Positions 8-25,274 of a stretch of DNA of 64,000 nt are shown here, in pieces (position 1 is the first letter of the stretch; every line of letters begins with the position of its first letter). The stretch covers positions 1-64,000 of the forward strand of contig JACDOE010000008.1 of assembly GCA_017656255.1 (NCBI GenBank), given 5' to 3'. Made by a program: the position numbers and the translations under genes. Origin of the DNA: Bacillaceae bacterium (GTDB lineage: Bacteria > Bacillota > Bacilli > JACDOE01). Below the pieces are notes generated by a model, which ran no database searches, was not told where the DNA came from, and saw nothing but the letters and a program-made list of their open reading frames with translations.

Positions 8-142
8 ATAGAGGAAAAGCTTTCCGTTAACTGGGGTCCAATACTTCGCATAATATTATGTCAGACACATAGCGGAAAAATTATCACTTATTATTTAATA
101 ATCGCGAAAAACCGGTTGATAGCGGAAAAAAGTTCACCTATT
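8..142. repeat. Short direct repeats, possible transposon end
   Basis: Two good copies of the unit ATAGCGGAAAAA lie at about 69-81 and 119-131. Both are followed by a TCAC-containing stretch (ttatcactta, agttcaccta). A weaker copy, ATAGAGGAAAAG, is at 8-19. Spaced repeats like these are typical of transposase-binding ends of IS21-type elements, but no transposase gene is visible in the window. The assignment is an inference. The rest of 143-471 shows nothing I can assign. Confidence 0.3.
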
Positions 143-1967: not shown

Positions 1968-3446
1968 ATGATGAAAATAAATGTTGAGCGACATAAAAAA
2001 GCACCGATTTTTGATGCGCTTGTTGAATATCATCGCGACCGGCCGATTCCATTTCATGTTCCGGGTCATAAAATGGGACGTGTTTTTGATGAGGCTGCAC
2101 AGAGATGGTTTCAGCCCTTACTCGGACTGGATGCTACAGAAGTCCGCGGCCTCGATGATCTGCATAACCCCGAAGGGGCCATCAGAGAGGCTCAGGAACT
2201 GGCTGCGGAACTGTTTCGAGCGGAAAAGACCCATTTTCTAATCGGGGGAAGTACGGTCGGCAATATCGCCATGATCATGACCGTCTGCCGTCCGGGAGAT
2301 CATATCATTGTGCAGCGCAATGTCCATAAATCAGTCATTAACGGAATCATACTGGCACGGGCGAATCCCGTTTTTATAACGCCCCGTATTGACGAAAAAA
2401 CAGGGGTTGCCGCCTCCATTTCTGCCAGGCATCTGGAGCAGGCGGTACGGGCTTATCCCGATGCCAAAGGGATATTTATCACCAATCCCAACTATTATGG
2501 GATGGGTACGGATTTGCATCAAATCGTCCGCATAGCACAGGAATATGGTATGCCGTTACTGGTGGATGAAGCCCATGGAGCCCACTTCGGTTTTCATCCT
2601 GACGTCCCCTTCTCCGCCATGGATGCCGGCGCCGACATGGCGGTGCAGTCCACCCATAAAATGTTGCCGGCGATGACGATGAGTTCGATGCTTCATGTTC
2701 AGGGAAAACGGATTGACCGGAACCGGTTGTCACAGGTTCTGTCCATGATTCAATCAAGCAGTCCGTCTTATCCGCTGATGGCTTCACTTGATCTGGCCAG
2801 ACGCGACATGGCATTATACGGGGTAAGCAGGATAAATGACGTGCTGGCTATCGTGAATCAGGCCCAAAATTGGATGGATAAACATGTGACCCTTTTTCAA
2901 CGCCCCGACCCGGTCAGTGATGCCTATGAAACCCTGGATCCGTTAAAAATAACGCTTCATACAGGCTCCCTTATCAATGGGTTTCAACTGCAGTCGTTAT
3001 TGGAAGAGTATCAATGTGTCGCTGAAATGGCAGATCGTGATAATGTGGTGTTGTCCCTGTCTCCGGGAACTTCCCGAGAAGATATGGATCGTCTGCTAGA
3101 GGCCCTCAAAGACATCGAAACCCGAATTTCCGTGCGAGAGGCACAAGATGTCGGCAAAAAAGAGGGAACCGCCATGAACATGGAGAATGTAGTAATAACC
3201 TCACCGGAACGGATGCCGGCCGAGGTGATGGATTCCGGGAAAGAACCGGTCAAACTGGTTGATTCGGCCGGAAGAATCTGTGCTGAATCCGTTATTCCAT
3301 ATCCACCGGGTGTACCGGTATTAATACCCGGAGAACGCATTGAGCCGAAACACATTGAACAGATTCAAAATCTGAAACAGGCGGGAGCCTATTTTCAAGG
3401 GATACAAAACCGTGACATGCCGTATATTTTAGTAACGGAAGCATAA
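1968..3446 (+). CDS. yaaO: Orn/Lys/Arg decarboxylase family protein (YaaO-like)
   Basis: 492 residues of a PLP fold-type I amino acid decarboxylase. The N terminus carries the family motif PFHVPGHKMG (about 27-36). The PLP-binding lysine sits in STHKML near residue 230, after the aspartate motif VDEAHGAHFG. The C-terminal part matches the smaller Orn/Lys/Arg C-terminal domain (YPPGVPVLIPGE). Family members make polyamines (cadaverine, agmatine or putrescine); the substrate cannot be told here. ATG 1968 has no clear ribosome binding site at normal distance, the nearest purine run being about 20 bases upstream. tmk follows after a short gap, as in B. subtilis. Confidence 0.9.
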   Translation: MMKINVERHKKAPIFDALVEYHRDRPIPFHVPGHKMGRVFDEAAQRWFQPLLGLDATEVRGLDDLHNPEGAIREAQELAAELFRAEKTHFLIGGSTVGNIAMIMTVCRPGDHIIVQRNVHKSVINGIILARANPVFITPRIDEKTGVAASISARHLEQAVRAYPDAKGIFITNPNYYGMGTDLHQIVRIAQEYGMPLLVDEAHGAHFGFHPDVPFSAMDAGADMAVQSTHKMLPAMTMSSMLHVQGKRIDRNRLSQVLSMIQSSSPSYPLMASLDLARRDMALYGVSRINDVLAIVNQAQNWMDKHVTLFQRPDPVSDAYETLDPLKITLHTGSLINGFQLQSLLEEYQCVAEMADRDNVVLSLSPGTSREDMDRLLEALKDIETRISVREAQDVGKKEGTAMNMENVVITSPERMPAEVMDSGKEPVKLVDSAGRICAESVIPYPPGVPVLIPGERIEPKHIEQIQNLKQAGAYFQGIQNRDMPYILVTEA

Positions 3447-4998: not shown

Positions 4999-5976
4999 AT
5001 GTGGAAAGACTTTAACGAGCAGCAACGTGTGACTCGTATTTTACAGGGAAGTTTGGAACATGATCGGATTGCCCATGCCTACCTGTTTGCAGGGCCGAGG
5101 GGAGCCGGCAAAAAAGCGGTGGCCCTCCAGCTGGCTAAGTCCCTGTTATGTCGTGAACTAGCATCTGACAGCTGTGAAGCATGTGCGGATTGTAAAAGGA
5201 TTAACGGCGGCAATCATCCCGATGTTCATCTGATAGAGCCGGACGGGGCTTCCATCAAAATCGAACAGGTACGAAATCTGCAAAAAGAGTTCTCTTATCG
5301 GGCTGTTGAAGGGAACCGCAAGATCTATATCGTGGATCATGCCGATACGATGACGGTTCAGGCAGCCAACAGTCTGTTGAAATTTCTGGAGGAACCGGCC
5401 TCCGGTGTGACGGCCATTTTGCTGACGGAACGCGTACATGCCGTCCTGCCTACCATCCTCTCCCGTTGCCAGCTGCTCACGTTTCAGCCGTTGCCTCCGG
5501 ATAAACTGGCACAACGGTTAATAGAGGAAGGTTATGCCTCCCCCGTGGCCCGGATCGCCTCCCAATTGACGGCAGGACTGGAAGAGGCAAGGAAATTATG
5601 CCAGTCAGAGTCGTTTGCACAGCTTCGAAACCAAGTGGTACAATTAAGTGAAGACATTTTAAACAGGGGTTCTTACGCCCTGTTGACGATTCAGGATAAA
5701 ATAACGGGACAGGACAATTCGAGAGATGAACTGATGCTTGTACTTGATATATATCTGATCTGGCTGCGCGATATATTGCTGTGGCAGTCGGATCGTCGAG
5801 ATCTGATCGTCCATGACGACCAGCAGGATGTGCTGGCCAAACAGGCTCTGCGTGTGGGAAGAAACACATTGCTCCAGCATATGGAGCTCGTTCTTGAGAC
5901 CAGGCGCAGGCTTGAGCAGAATGCCAGCCCCCAGTTGTCCCTGGAAAGGATGGTTCTCGAACTTCAGGAGGGATAA
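4999..5976 (+). CDS. holB: DNA polymerase III delta-prime subunit
   Basis: About 325 residues; clamp-loader subunit of the replicative polymerase. It has an AAA+ fold with GPRGAGKK in place of a standard P-loop, the four-cysteine zinc module (CRELASDSCEACADC), and SRC (sensor) in PTILSRCQLLTF. Four ATG codons follow each other at 4990, 4993, 4996 and 4999. Only the last is properly spaced from TTAGGA, so MWKDFNEQQRV is preferred. ricT follows after three bases, which suggests coupled translation. Confidence 0.95.
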   Translation: MWKDFNEQQRVTRILQGSLEHDRIAHAYLFAGPRGAGKKAVALQLAKSLLCRELASDSCEACADCKRINGGNHPDVHLIEPDGASIKIEQVRNLQKEFSYRAVEGNRKIYIVDHADTMTVQAANSLLKFLEEPASGVTAILLTERVHAVLPTILSRCQLLTFQPLPPDKLAQRLIEEGYASPVARIASQLTAGLEEARKLCQSESFAQLRNQVVQLSEDILNRGSYALLTIQDKITGQDNSRDELMLVLDIYLIWLRDILLWQSDRRDLIVHDDQQDVLAKQALRVGRNTLLQHMELVLETRRRLEQNASPQLSLERMVLELQEG

Positions 5977-7288: not shown

Positions 7289-8044
7289 ATGGAGCGGGTA
7301 CCCCTTTATCCTTCTGAGCGAATAGATGATTTATTGACACAGGATTTAAAGATTATACAGAGTCGAGAGGTCTTCAGTTTTTCCATGGATGCCGTCCTGC
7401 TGGCCCGTTTTGTGACGCTCCCCAAAAAAGGGAAGGTGATGGATCTCTGTACGGGAAACGGGGTGATTCCCCTGCTGATGAGTACCCGGACAGAGGCTCA
7501 CATCGATGGTGTGGAAATTCAGGAGCGTCTGTATGATATGGCCAGGCGGAGTGTGATGATGAATCAGAAACGGGATCAGATTGCCATTCATCACGGGGAT
7601 GCCAGAGAAGCCGACCATCAGTTCGGCAATGGAAAATATGATGTACTGACCTGTAATCCTCCCTATCTGCCAAAAGTGGGTGGTGAGAAAAATGAAAACC
7701 CTCACATTGCCATCGCCCGGCATGAAATCCTGATCACTCTGGAAGACATTGTTCGGGTCAGTTGCCGCCTGGTCCGTTCCGGGGGAAAAGTGGCGTTTGT
7801 GTACCGTCCCTCCCGGTTAGCCGAATTGATGGCGTTAATGAAACAATACCGGATCGAACCCAAACGGATGCGGCTGGTACATCCGAAAAAGGGGGAAGAG
7901 GCCAATATCGTGCTGCTAGAAGGGATCCGCGATGGGAAACCGGATTTGAAGGTCCTGCCTCCCCTGATTGTGTATCAGGACGATGGGGAATATTGTGAAG
8001 AAATCTATAACATTTATTATGGAAAATCGGATTCGTTAGTCTGA
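7289..8044 (+). CDS. trmN6: tRNA1(Val) (adenine-N6)-methyltransferase-like protein (YabB)
   Basis: 251 residues. SAM-binding motif I is VMDLCTGNGVIPLL (about 50-63) and the catalytic N6-adenine motif is NPPYLP (about 126-131). The length and order match YabB/TrmNF family enzymes, which methylate A37 or a related adenine in tRNA. GGAAGGG precedes ATG 7289. yazA follows 24 bases later and rsmI next, so three RNA-related genes form one unit. Confidence 0.9.
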   Translation: MERVPLYPSERIDDLLTQDLKIIQSREVFSFSMDAVLLARFVTLPKKGKVMDLCTGNGVIPLLMSTRTEAHIDGVEIQERLYDMARRSVMMNQKRDQIAIHHGDAREADHQFGNGKYDVLTCNPPYLPKVGGEKNENPHIAIARHEILITLEDIVRVSCRLVRSGGKVAFVYRPSRLAELMALMKQYRIEPKRMRLVHPKKGEEANIVLLEGIRDGKPDLKVLPPLIVYQDDGEYCEEIYNIYYGKSDSLV

Positions 8045-8068
8045 CAGGAAACGGGGTTTTTATCAATC

Positions 8069-8332
8069 ATGGATTATTGTGTGTACATGTTGGAATGTGC
8101 GGACCGGTCGTTATATACCGGCATAACCAACGACATCGACAAAAGGATCCGGGAACATAACCAGGGAAAAGCTTCGAAGTACACCCGTTCCCGGCTGCCT
8201 GTCAAACTGGTTTACCTCGAACAAGGGATGGATAAAAGCCAGGCGCTCCGGCGCGAGCTGGAAATCAAGCGGTTAACAAGGCCGCAAAAGGAAGCGTTAA
8301 TCACGTCGCAAAACAATGTCACGTATAAGTGA
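8069..8332 (+). CDS. yazA: GIY-YIG domain protein YazA (UPF0213)
   Basis: 87 residues, a stand-alone GIY-YIG nuclease fold. CVYMLECADRSLYTGITNDI carries the family Y-x(n)-YTG pattern, followed by R..EHN and the closing ELEIKRLTRPQKEALI. The biological substrate of UPF0213 proteins is not known. The upstream spacing and neighbours (trmN6, rsmI) match B. subtilis. Confidence 0.92.
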   Translation: MDYCVYMLECADRSLYTGITNDIDKRIREHNQGKASKYTRSRLPVKLVYLEQGMDKSQALRRELEIKRLTRPQKEALITSQNNVTYK

Positions 8333-21629: not shown

Positions 21630-23018
21630 ATGGGAGATCAATATGCGGTTGTCCTGGCTGCCGGCCAGGGGACTCGAATGAAATCAAAGACGCATAAAGT
21701 GTTGCATCCCGTCTGTGGCAAACCGATGGTACAGCATATAATCGATAATTTGAAAGCGGCCGGAATCGATCAAATACTGGTGGTCGTCGGCTATGGTGCT
21801 GATTCGATTCAAAATCAGTTGAAAGATACCGTTCAGTATGCCATGCAGGAAGAACAGCTGGGAACCGGTCATGCCGTCATGCAAACCCGGTCTTTACTGA
21901 AAGATAAAGAAGGAACGGTGCTGGTGATGAACGGCGATACACCGCTTGTGACGCCGCAAACGATTGAAGCCCTTTTTCGTGTTCATGAAGCGCAAAAGGC
22001 TGCCGGTACCGTGCTGACGACAGAATTCGGTGATCCTCAGGGATACGGGCGAATTGTCCGTAATGCAAACGGCGACGTCGAGAAGATTGTCGAACACAAA
22101 GATGCAACGGAAGAAGAGCGAAACATCAGGGAAATCAATACCGGTATTTACTGTTTTGATAACCGGAAGATGTGGGACGCTTTGAGCAGGGTTAACAATG
22201 ATAATGCTCAGGGAGAATATTACCTCACCGATGTGATTGAAATATTGAAAGCCTCCGGGGAAAAGGTCATCGCCCATAAGACTCCGGACTGTGATGAAAC
22301 AGTGGGCATTAACGATCGTGTACAGCTGGCCCGTGCCGAAAAGATCCTCAGAAATCGTATCCTCGAGGAACACATGCGGAACGGAGTGACCATCGTCGAC
22401 CCGGATACCACGTTTATCGACGCCGGTGTTGAGATCGGGCGGGATACGGTCATTTACCCGGGATCGATTCTCAGGGGAAAGACGGTGATTGGAGAAGATT
22501 GCCGGATCGGTCCCCATGCCGACATTCAGAACAGCCGTATTGAAAATAATATTGCCATTATTCATTCCACATTATCAGATTGTATGGTAAAAGAAGGAAC
22601 CCATATTGGTCCTTATGCCCATATTCGTCCCGGTTCGGAACTGGGTCGCGGGGCCCGAATCGGAAATTTTGTCGAGGTCAAGAACACGACCTTCGGGGAT
22701 GGTTCCAAAGCTTCGCACCTGGCCTATATCGGAGATGCCGAAGTCGGTGACAATGTGAATATCGGTTGTGGTGCGATTACCGTCAACTATGACGGATCCA
22801 ACAAACATAAAACCGTGATTCAGTCGGATGCCTTTATCGGTTGTAATACCAACCTGATCGCCCCCGTGAACGTGGGCCGGGGTGCTTACATTGCGGCAGG
22901 ATCCACCATCAACAAGGATGTACCGGATGATGCACTGGGTATTGCCAGAGTACGTCAAACCAATAAAGAAAACTATGCAGAAAAACTCAGAAATAAAAAA
23001 TCATTTGGAGGCAAGTAA
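21630..23018 (+). CDS. glmU: Bifunctional GlcNAc-1-P uridyltransferase / GlcN-1-P acetyltransferase
   Basis: 462 residues. Makes UDP-GlcNAc for peptidoglycan and wall polymers. The N-terminal uridyltransferase has [11 protein letters not shown] (about 9-19) and NGDTPL. The C-terminal half is a left-handed beta-helix of hexapeptide repeats ([13 protein letters not shown] onward) with the acetyl-CoA site near [20 protein letters not shown] precedes ATG 21630. prs follows after two bases. Confidence 0.97.
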
Positions 23019-23020
23019 AA

Positions 23021-23980
23021 ATGGCAAATTATCGTGATCCGAAATTGAAGATCTTTACCGGAAATTCCAACCCCAAACTGGCTCATGAAATTGCGGAACA
23101 TATCGGTCTTCAATTGGGGAATGCTCAGGTAGACAAATTCAGTGACGGTGAGTGTCAGATTGTCGTCAACGAAAGTGTTCGCGGTGCAGATGTGTTTGTT
23201 GTTCAATCCACATCTGCTCCGGTGAATCAGCATTTGATGGAACTATTGGTGATGGTGGATGCCTTAAAGAGGGCTTCGGCCAAAAGCATTAACGTTGTCA
23301 TTCCTTATTACGGATATGCACGGCAGGATCGGAAAGCCCGGGCCCGTGACCCGATTACGGCCAAACTGGTGGCCAACCTGATTGAAACGGCAGGAGCAAG
23401 CCGTGTGATTACCATGGACCTTCATGCCACTCAGATTCAGGGATTCTTTGATATCCCGGTCGATCATTTGCTGGGTGAGCCGATCCTGGCGAAATATTTT
23501 GCTGAACGTGAAGATTTGAATTTAGATGAGGTAATCGTTGTTTCACCTGACCACGGCGGCGTGACCCGGGCCAGAAAACTGGCTGAACATCTGAAGGCAC
23601 CCATCGCGATTATCGATAAGCGGCGTCCAAAGCCGAATGTGGCGGAAGTGATGAACATCGTCGGGAACATTGAAGGACGTATTGCCATTATTATTGATGA
23701 TATTATTGACACAGCCGGTACCATCACCCAGGCTGCGGATGCCTTGATTGAAAGCGGGGCAAAAGACGTATTTGCCTGTTGTACACACCCTGTCCTTTCC
23801 GGACCGGCCATCGAACGCATACAGAATTCAAGAATCACCGAACTAGTAGTTACCAACACCATTCCTTTAAGCGAGGACAAGCAGATCGATAAGATCAAGA
23901 CGCTTTCCGTCGCACCGATTATTGGAGAAGCCATCGTACGTGTCCATGAAAAACTGTCCGTAAGCAAACTGTTTGACTGA
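23021..23980 (+). CDS. prs: Ribose-phosphate pyrophosphokinase (PRPP synthetase)
   Basis: 319 residues. Makes PRPP from ribose-5-P and ATP. Motifs are [40 protein letters not shown] and the PRPP loop [14 protein letters not shown]. Ends 66 bases before ctc. It shares the purine theme with purR nearby, and a transcript running on into ctc is likely. Confidence 0.97.
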
Positions 23981-23981
23981 T

Positions 23982-24009
23982 AGGTTTGTCATCCCTCCTG
24001 TTGGGGTAT
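23982..24009 (+). promoter_or_regulatory. Sigma-B-type promoter of ctc
   Basis: AGGTTTGT (23982-23989) and GGGTAT (24004-24009) are 14 bp apart. The element matches the general-stress sigma-B consensus (GGTTTAA, GGGTAT), and B. subtilis ctc is a model sigma-B gene. Start of transcription would be near 24016. Confidence 0.65.
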
Positions 24010-24040
24010 ATTAGGGATATACCTGAATATGGGAGGGATG
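23990..24040 (+). promoter_or_regulatory. Inverted repeat that can mask the ctc ribosome binding site
   Basis: CATCCCTCC (23990-23998) is an exact complement of GGAGGGATG (24032-24040), which holds the ctc ribosome binding site. The loop contains a second small hairpin, GTATA/TATAC. The first arm lies within the sigma-B promoter, upstream of its predicted start, so only longer RNA entering from prs could form the stem. Confidence 0.6.
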
Positions 24041-24046
24041 TTCTAT

Positions 24047-24682
24047 ATGAGTCGTGTTCTTCAGGCTGAAAACCGCAATGAGATGACACGTGCCGCCACA
24101 CGTTCCCTCAGAAAAAAAGGAAGAGTTCCGGCCATTCTATATGGAGAAGGGATTGAGTCACAACCCATTCATGTCGATGGCATGGCGTTGTGGCAAATGG
24201 TCCGGGATGAGGGCCTCAATCATGTGATCCGCCTGAAAATGGATGGCGATGTCCATCATGTGATGGTGTATGAATTGCAACGCGAACCAATCAAGGGAGA
24301 ACTTCTGCACATTGATTTTAAAAAAATACTGATGGACGAACCGGTGGAAACCAGCCTTCCAATCAAATTAACCGGTGAACCCGAGGGCGTGAAAGCAGGC
24401 GGTGTGATGCAGTCTCAACTTCGTGAACTCGAAGTGCGCTGTCTTCCGGACCGGATACCCGAGGAACTGGAAGCGGACGTTTCGTCGATGCAAATCGGTG
24501 ATTCGTTGACGGTTGGCGATCTGACGGTTCCTGATGGCGTTGAAGTTCTACATGAAGAAGACGAAGTGATTGTCAGCCTGCTGCCTCCGCGCCTGGATCC
24601 CATCGATAAAGCGGAGGAAGATCCGGGAGAACCCGAACTGGTAGACGCCAGAGACGGCCCGGGAATAGATGAGGCAAAATAA
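24047..24682 (+). CDS. ctc: Ribosomal protein bL25, long (Ctc/TL5) form
   Basis: 211 residues. The N-terminal 5S rRNA-binding domain (about 1-95: LRKKGRVPAILYG) and the C-terminal TL5 domain (about 100-190: IKLTGEPEGVKAGG) match the stress-induced Ctc form, with an acidic tail. GGGAGGGATG at 24031-24040 fits ATG 24047; two earlier ATGs (24029, 24038) are in frame but overlap that site. pth follows. Confidence 0.95.
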   Translation: MSRVLQAENRNEMTRAATRSLRKKGRVPAILYGEGIESQPIHVDGMALWQMVRDEGLNHVIRLKMDGDVHHVMVYELQREPIKGELLHIDFKKILMDEPVETSLPIKLTGEPEGVKAGGVMQSQLRELEVRCLPDRIPEELEADVSSMQIGDSLTVGDLTVPDGVEVLHEEDEVIVSLLPPRLDPIDKAEEDPGEPELVDARDGPGIDEAK

Positions 24683-24707: not shown

Positions 24708-25274
24708 ATGAGGATGAAGGTTGTCATCGGACTGGGGAATCCGGGAAAAGAATATGAAAACACCCGCCACAATGTTGGCTTTATGGTACTGGACCGACTG
24801 GCGGACATGTGGCATGTTGATATCAGTCAGCATAAATTCCAGTCCATGGTGGGGGAAGGACGTCTGGATACAGAAAAGGTTTTGCTGGTCAAACCCTTAA
24901 CGTTTATGAACTTGTCAGGGGAGGCGGTGCGGAAGGTCGTCGATTTCTACAAGTTGGACATCGAGGACCTGGTCATTGTTTACGATGATCTGGATCTTCC
25001 CGCCGGCCGAATCCGACTGAGGCAAAAGGGTAGCGCCGGCGGCCACAATGGCATCAAATCCATCATCGCCCATCTCGGCACGCAGGAATTTAAAAGGGTT
25101 AAAATAGGTATTGATCGTCCCCCGGCCGGGCAGGATGTCGCTCGTTATGTCCTGTCTCCATTCGGAAAAGAAGAACGAAATCTTGTGGATGAAGCCGTAG
25201 ATCGGGCTGCCCGGGCATGTGAGCACTGGATTCGTCATTCGTTTACGGATGCAATGAATCAGTTTAATGGTTAA
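24708..25274 (+). CDS. pth: Peptidyl-tRNA hydrolase (SpoVC)
   Basis: 188 residues. Recycles peptidyl-tRNA released by stalled ribosomes. Motifs are GLGNPGKEYENTRHNVGF (catalytic His in RHN), KPLTFMNLSGEAV and GSAGGHNGIKSI. ATG 24708 or 24714 is possible; AAGG lies 5 or 11 bases upstream respectively. It is probably co-transcribed with ctc, which also binds the ribosome. Confidence 0.96.
   Translation: MRMKVVIGLGNPGKEYENTRHNVGFMVLDRLADMWHVDISQHKFQSMVGEGRLDTEKVLLVKPLTFMNLSGEAVRKVVDFYKLDIEDLVIVYDDLDLPAGRIRLRQKGSAGGHNGIKSIIAHLGTQEFKRVKIGIDRPPAGQDVARYVLSPFGKEERNLVDEAVDRAARACEHWIRHSFTDAMNQFNG

Follow-up and report, generated by a model that had tools for sequence, protein, structure and literature searches.

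The ctc locus of this Bacillaceae bacterium raises the question of why a promoter of the sigma-B/sigma-F group should have in its spacer a segment exactly complementary to the ribosome binding site of the gene that it precedes. A sequence-only reading of the window, by which we mean the whole 64,000-nucleotide stretch of DNA analysed here, had proposed that RNA entering ctc from the upstream genes could hide the ribosome site, and that RNA started by sigma-B under stress would be freely translated. Our analysis points to a conserved promoter-choice translation switch at ctc, driven in this organism most likely by SigF or SigG, a reading to which we assign a probability of about 0.78.

Organization of the ctc leader

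The genes glmU, prs, ctc and pth are co-directional in the window (Table 1). The gcaD-prs-ctc genes of Bacillus subtilis form an operon whose tricistronic expression in vegetative cells is named in a title cited in PMC4403831, so the masked RNA does exist there. RNA reading through from prs into ctc is probably made in the present organism too; a scan of the prs-ctc gap found no terminator-like site on the + strand, and a search of the ctc leader with Rfam covariance models gave no family match.

The two arms, CATCCCTCC and GGAGGGATG, are 100% complementary with 33 nt between them, exactly to the base as the sequence-only reading had it, and its placing of the first arm within the spacer of a sigma-B-type promoter, AGGTTTGT-14-GGGTAT, is equally exact. 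A second stem, GGTATAT/ATATACC, which that reading did not include, lies within the loop and overlaps the -10 element. The promoter fits the SigB-type pattern GTTTAA-(12..15)-GGGTAT with a score of 17.5, and, judged by motif and spacing, RNA synthesis would begin between the two arms. The motif alone is not rare, with 14 occurrences of GTTT-16-GGGTAT genome-wide against 8 for a reversed-pattern control, and a genome-wide search for the SigB-type pattern revealed no convincing regulon. Occurrences of GTTT-16-GGGTAT are found directly before rpoB and before a Crp/Fnr-type-regulator-like gene (L199, G000:C8:83887-83912, and L195, G000:C6:132090-132115, respectively), and these could be due to chance.

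Table 1. Coordinates of the features discussed; positions are those of the window unless a contig or locus is named
Feature	Position	Strand	Basis
glmU (gcaD), first gene of the glmU-prs-ctc cluster	21630-23018	+	TIGR01173
prs, ribose-phosphate diphosphokinase; upstream gene whose transcripts would enter ctc	23021-23980	+	NF002618 (NCBIfam) above cut-off
-35 region AGGTTTGT of the sigma-B/sigma-F-group promoter	23982-23989	+	Motif; promoter score 17.5
Promoter spacer, 14 nt	23990-24003	+	Sequence
Left (masking) arm CATCCCTCC, spacer nt 1-9	23990-23998	+	Exact complement of 24032-24040
-10 element GGGTAT; the extended form GGGTATATT also fits the SigF-type form GGNNANANT	24004-24009	+	Sequence
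Inner stem-loop GGTATAT/ATATACC, upper part of the hairpin	24005-24023 (24005-24011/24017-24023)	+	Folding, sequence
Predicted RNA start	24016	+	Spacing to the -10 element
Right arm GGAGGGATG, the ctc ribosome binding site	24032-24040	+	Sequence; mean P(unpaired) of 24033-24037 0.001-0.002 in read-through RNA
ctc, bL25-family ribosomal protein/general stress protein Ctc	24047-24682 (ATG 24047)	+	NF004133, TIGR00731 above cut-off
pth, aminoacyl-tRNA hydrolase, gene after ctc	24708-25274	+	TIGR00447
spoIIR of the present genome	L211, G000:C4 ~45.4 kb	-	Spacer/ribosome-site pairing
sigG leader of the present genome	L104 (G000:C1:851000-861000), ~5716-5780	-	Spacer arm pairs with ribosome site

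Folding and accessibility of the ribosome site

The 58-nt hairpin has a predicted energy of -29.8 kcal/mol (z = -5.2), which none of 200 dinucleotide shuffles equalled. Shuffling confined to the spacer letters gave a mean pairing energy with the ribosome site of -10.4 kcal/mol, and 0.1% of the trials reached the -19.7 kcal/mol of the real spacer. By raw complementarity within 76 nt upstream, ctc ranks third among the 52 genes of the window; it is special by the placement of the arm and its conservation, not by pairing energy alone.

In folding of the read-through RNA, positions 24033-24037 are predicted to be unpaired 0.1-0.2% of the time, and opening them would cost approximately 16-20 kcal/mol. 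For RNA beginning at 24016 the corresponding values are 48-62% and approximately 6-7 kcal/mol when the 3' end lies at or before 24105, and a P(unpaired) of 0.06-0.11 with approximately 9-11 kcal/mol when it lies at or beyond 24120, because the ribosome site can then re-pair with early coding sequence. Masking of the read-through RNA is thus well supported by the folding models. The proposal that RNA started at 24016 would be freely translated survives in part: the masking is relieved in the models, but the re-pairing seen with long 3' sequence leads us to predict an RNA that is much less masked rather than one that is fully open.

Conservation of the pairing across the Bacilli

Relatives were compared at the level of the class, in which Ctc is encoded by 121 of the 151 genomes; with additional genomes from four families, these yielded 169 ctc upstream regions. 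A SigB-type promoter score of at least 16 was found in 126 of the 169, as against about 6 after shuffling. For the analysis of pairing we used 69 representatives with less than 70% identity over the spacer and ribosome site. Among these, spacers pair with their own ribosome sites at -10.56 kcal/mol and with permuted ones at -7.92 kcal/mol (z -9.3; none of 20000 permutations equalled the observed value), although common ancestry means that z-scores of this kind overstate independence and are not strict probabilities. A control window directly upstream of the -35 shows no own-pair effect (z +0.5). Complementarity to the own ribosome site is greatest at the centre of the spacer, where it reaches -9.9 as compared with approximately -4 to -6 elsewhere and with -6.4 for shuffled spacers of the same composition (p 8e-10). 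When the signal is followed by distance from the start codon it is present at ctc and absent at the control gene gpr.

The predicted accessibilities behave in the same way. Over the 69 representatives the median opening cost is 10.8 kcal/mol for read-through RNA, 5.0 kcal/mol for promoter-started RNA (Wilcoxon 4e-13) and 7.5 kcal/mol for read-through RNA with a shuffled spacer (p 2e-9 against the unshuffled form). The 27 best-ranked ctc cases span 13 families, and there are also SigB-bearing relatives (e.g. G059, G110 and G132) in which the promoter is present and the spacer pairing is slight. This cross-family covariation shows that the promoter spacer is under selection as an RNA arm. The sequence-only reading had named conservation in relatives as a test of its proposal, and the pairing is indeed kept, at class level; its claim that read-through RNA could hide the ctc ribosome site is accordingly backed both by folding and by the specificity of each spacer for its own site.

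The ctc leaders of family f22 (L045, L048, L049, L051, L052, L053, L060, L061, L065 and L100) are of a different kind. They have another conserved element, ACCTCC-nn-TGGACAAGCTAG ... GGAGG-TTTTTTT, which lies right before the start codon and constitutes a terminator-like hairpin that buries the ribosome site, and they have no GTTT-14-GGG promoter. Among seven of these leaders that were checked there was no gathering-level Rfam match, and it is possible that this is an unrecorded cis element.

Which sigma factor reads the ctc promoter

The attribution of the promoter to sigma-B under stress does not hold up in this genome. A search of the assembly, which is 98.88% complete, with the SigB model TIGR02941 gave no match above the cut-off. 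The best-scoring protein, which reaches 370 bits against the SigF model, is SigF, encoded in a spoIIA-type operon (dacF-spoIIAA-spoIIAB-[match]-spoVA); the second, at 513 bits against the SigG model, is SigG, encoded right after SigE. The remaining matches are weaker and by size, position and neighbours resemble SigD, SigA, SigE, SigK and SigH. SigF and SigG are the only sigma-B-group factors found in the genome, and sigB is likely to be absent, although it could lie in the unassembled ~1% or be too diverged for the SigB model.

Across the class, SigB scores above the cut-off in 65 of the 151 genomes. Both the promoter and the pairing are kept in G137, in G013 and in each of the five family f8 genomes, although nothing in them scores higher with the SigB model than SigF typically does; some other genomes below the cut-off have SigB-model matches of 200-250 bits, which may represent diverged SigB proteins. 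Position 9 of the -10 is T in 19 of 25 genomes without SigB and in 13 of 30 with it (Fisher p 0.027, uncorrected for ancestry), a weak and only suggestive sign of a shift in the -10 where SigB is lacking.

We compared the ctc promoter with a SigF-type form consisting of GGNNANANT some 15 nt after GTTTA or GYATA. The extended -10, GGGTATATT, fits it, and the -35, GTTTG, differs from GTTTA at a single base; the SigF promoters of spoIIR in the compared genomes have the form GTTTA-15-GNCCATACTG. From this motif fit, and from the parallels described below, SigF (or SigG) acting in the forespore is the factor that most likely reads the ctc promoter here.

A separate observation concerns sigK. At L103 (G000:C11:37000-48000), positions 2945-3307 and 7550-8287 of the - strand, there is a complete sigK together with a second copy of its C-terminal part; the approximately 4.2 kb between the copies encode a transporter, a methyltransferase and a terpenoid-cyclase-like protein, and the region may be the remnant of a sigK-interrupting or duplicated element.

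Parallels at spoIIR and sigG

The same layout is present at spoIIR, downstream of prmC, where the spacer of the SigF promoter is complementary to the gene's own ribosome site; these promoters were found by a graded scan, as a simple regular expression misses most of them. In the present genome the ribosome site has GGATGGGG, and GTTTA-AAAACGCCTCATCCA-GTCCATACTG lies upstream of it. Across 14 genomes (loci L201-L215) own pairs average -13.9 as against -10.6 for permuted ones (z -5.0, p 2e-5), and in the same 14 genomes the region upstream of the -35 gives no own-pair effect (z -0.7). The predicted gain in accessibility is small in the present genome (11.3 vs 10.5 kcal/mol) and larger in most of the others. 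One limited literature search for a read-through hairpin at spoIIR found no report.

At the sigG of the present genome, TTCCTTCCTC lies in the presumed spacer (GCATA-14-GGAGATACTT) and pairs with GAGGAGGGGGAA at -15.9 kcal/mol, a value equalled by 0.4% of shuffles; opening the site is predicted to cost 17-19 kcal/mol with the arm and 9.1 kcal/mol without it. Both spoIIR and sigG are forespore genes.

Discussion

We propose that part of the 14-nt spacer at the ctc promoter pairs with the ctc ribosome site, so that RNA from glmU-prs, holding both arms, would form a hairpin (about -30 kcal/mol) and yield little Ctc. RNA from the internal promoter would start past the left arm, such that the hairpin cannot form, and Ctc would be made. 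Ctc protein would in this way be tied to an alternative sigma factor despite the position of ctc in a housekeeping operon; that factor would be SigB in most Bacilli and SigF (or SigG), in the forespore, in the present genome.

Several other explanations of the hairpin deserve attention. The strong hairpin over the ribosome site of a ribosomal-protein gene could be a default repressor opened by a ligand, the simplest forms being feedback by Ctc/bL25 or another RNA-binding regulator, with the overlap of the promoter being incidental, and it is true that Brevibacillus-like genomes (L045, L049, L052 etc.) have a different conserved ctc leader that also buries the ribosome site. We nevertheless consider this improbable, for the left arm stays fixed to the promoter spacer while the arm sequence and loop vary, the leader matches no Rfam family, and the spacer design recurs at spoIIR and sigG, neither of which encodes an RNA-binding ribosomal protein. 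A DNA operator, suggested by perfect 9-bp arms on either side of the -10 region, is less plausible still: the arm sequence is not common across genomes and what persists is complementarity within each genome, G-U pairs included, as expected of RNA rather than of a protein-DNA site. A stable G+C-containing hairpin between two genes might also be taken for a transcription attenuator or terminator, but it is followed by no T run (TTCTATATGAG), the scan of the gap was negative, and its right arm is the ribosome site itself, and we give this reading hardly any credence. Chance resemblance between pyrimidine-rich spacers and purine-rich ribosome sites must contribute something, since any spacer pairs to some extent with any ribosome site (the cross mean is -7.9) and two other genes in the window exceed ctc in raw upstream complementarity. 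As the whole explanation it is equally hard to credit at this locus, given that own pairs outdo both permuted pairs and composition-shuffled spacers and that so few shuffles reach the present pairing, and for the whole set it is refuted by the own-pair and shuffle comparisons and by the comparison of start-codon distance with gpr.

The remaining alternative leaves the masking switch intact and changes only its driver, which would be an unrecognised SigB or another sigma factor in place of SigF. In its favour, the motif most resembles the SigB consensus GTTTAA-14-GGGTAT and the assembly is slightly incomplete; against it, every SigB-model match falls below the cut-off, the top two being SigF and SigG, and the strict promoter pattern has no clear regulon. 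We regard it as unlikely, though as a serious competitor to the reading in which SigF or SigG drives the switch.

Promoters placed inside a hairpin, which free a site that is hidden in longer RNA, are familiar from the early/late RNA switch of phage T4 genes (e.g. lysozyme e and soc) and from the fold-back inhibition of the IS10/IS50 transposases; the genes are unrelated to ctc and no common ancestry is implied. McCormick, Lalanne, Lan, Rouskin and Li, writing in RNA in 2021 (27:791-804), reportedly found that a later start removing structure is the cause of differential translation among sigma-B genes of B. subtilis, with ctc among the examples. As summarized in PMC8073009, citing McCormick 2021, the sigma-B isoforms are translated far more efficiently than the basal sigma-A isoform, and to the extent of that summary the likeness to the present case is close, in that a housekeeping or read-through isoform is translated poorly and the sigma-B isoform well. 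Unlike B. subtilis, the present organism has no recognizable SigB, and the switch is predicted here from sequence and folding. A further parallel is sigG (spoIIIG) of B. subtilis, for which Mearls et al. (2018; PMC5942855) discuss a proposal that read-through transcripts from PspoIIG are kept untranslated by a large hairpin, one that RNA begun at PsigG is unable to form. The sigG of the present genome also has its arm in the spacer; the gene and sigma factor differ from those at ctc, however, and ctc lies in a metabolic operon. The mechanism is therefore already known, from the sigma-B genes of B. subtilis and the sigG hairpin. What is new is the covariation across the Bacilli, the finding that the arm lies within the promoter spacer, the persistence of the arrangement where no SigB is recognizable, and the parallel at spoIIR.

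It is conceivable, although we put it a little below even odds, that an arm directed against the ribosome site and carried in the spacer is a general device of SigB, SigF and SigG promoters in the Bacilli, gating ctc, spoIIR and sigG against read-through that would yield stress or forespore proteins, and that the ctc switch passed to SigF in lineages without SigB. The comparisons provide evolutionary evidence, independent of any single species, for selection of a promoter spacer as an RNA element, and they show a way in which a housekeeping operon could contain a gene whose protein is not made until an alternative sigma factor comes into play. Annotation or transcriptomics that equates RNA with protein level would misread ctc in many Bacilli, and the spoIIR arrangement suggests that a key signal in sporulation is safeguarded at the level of translation.
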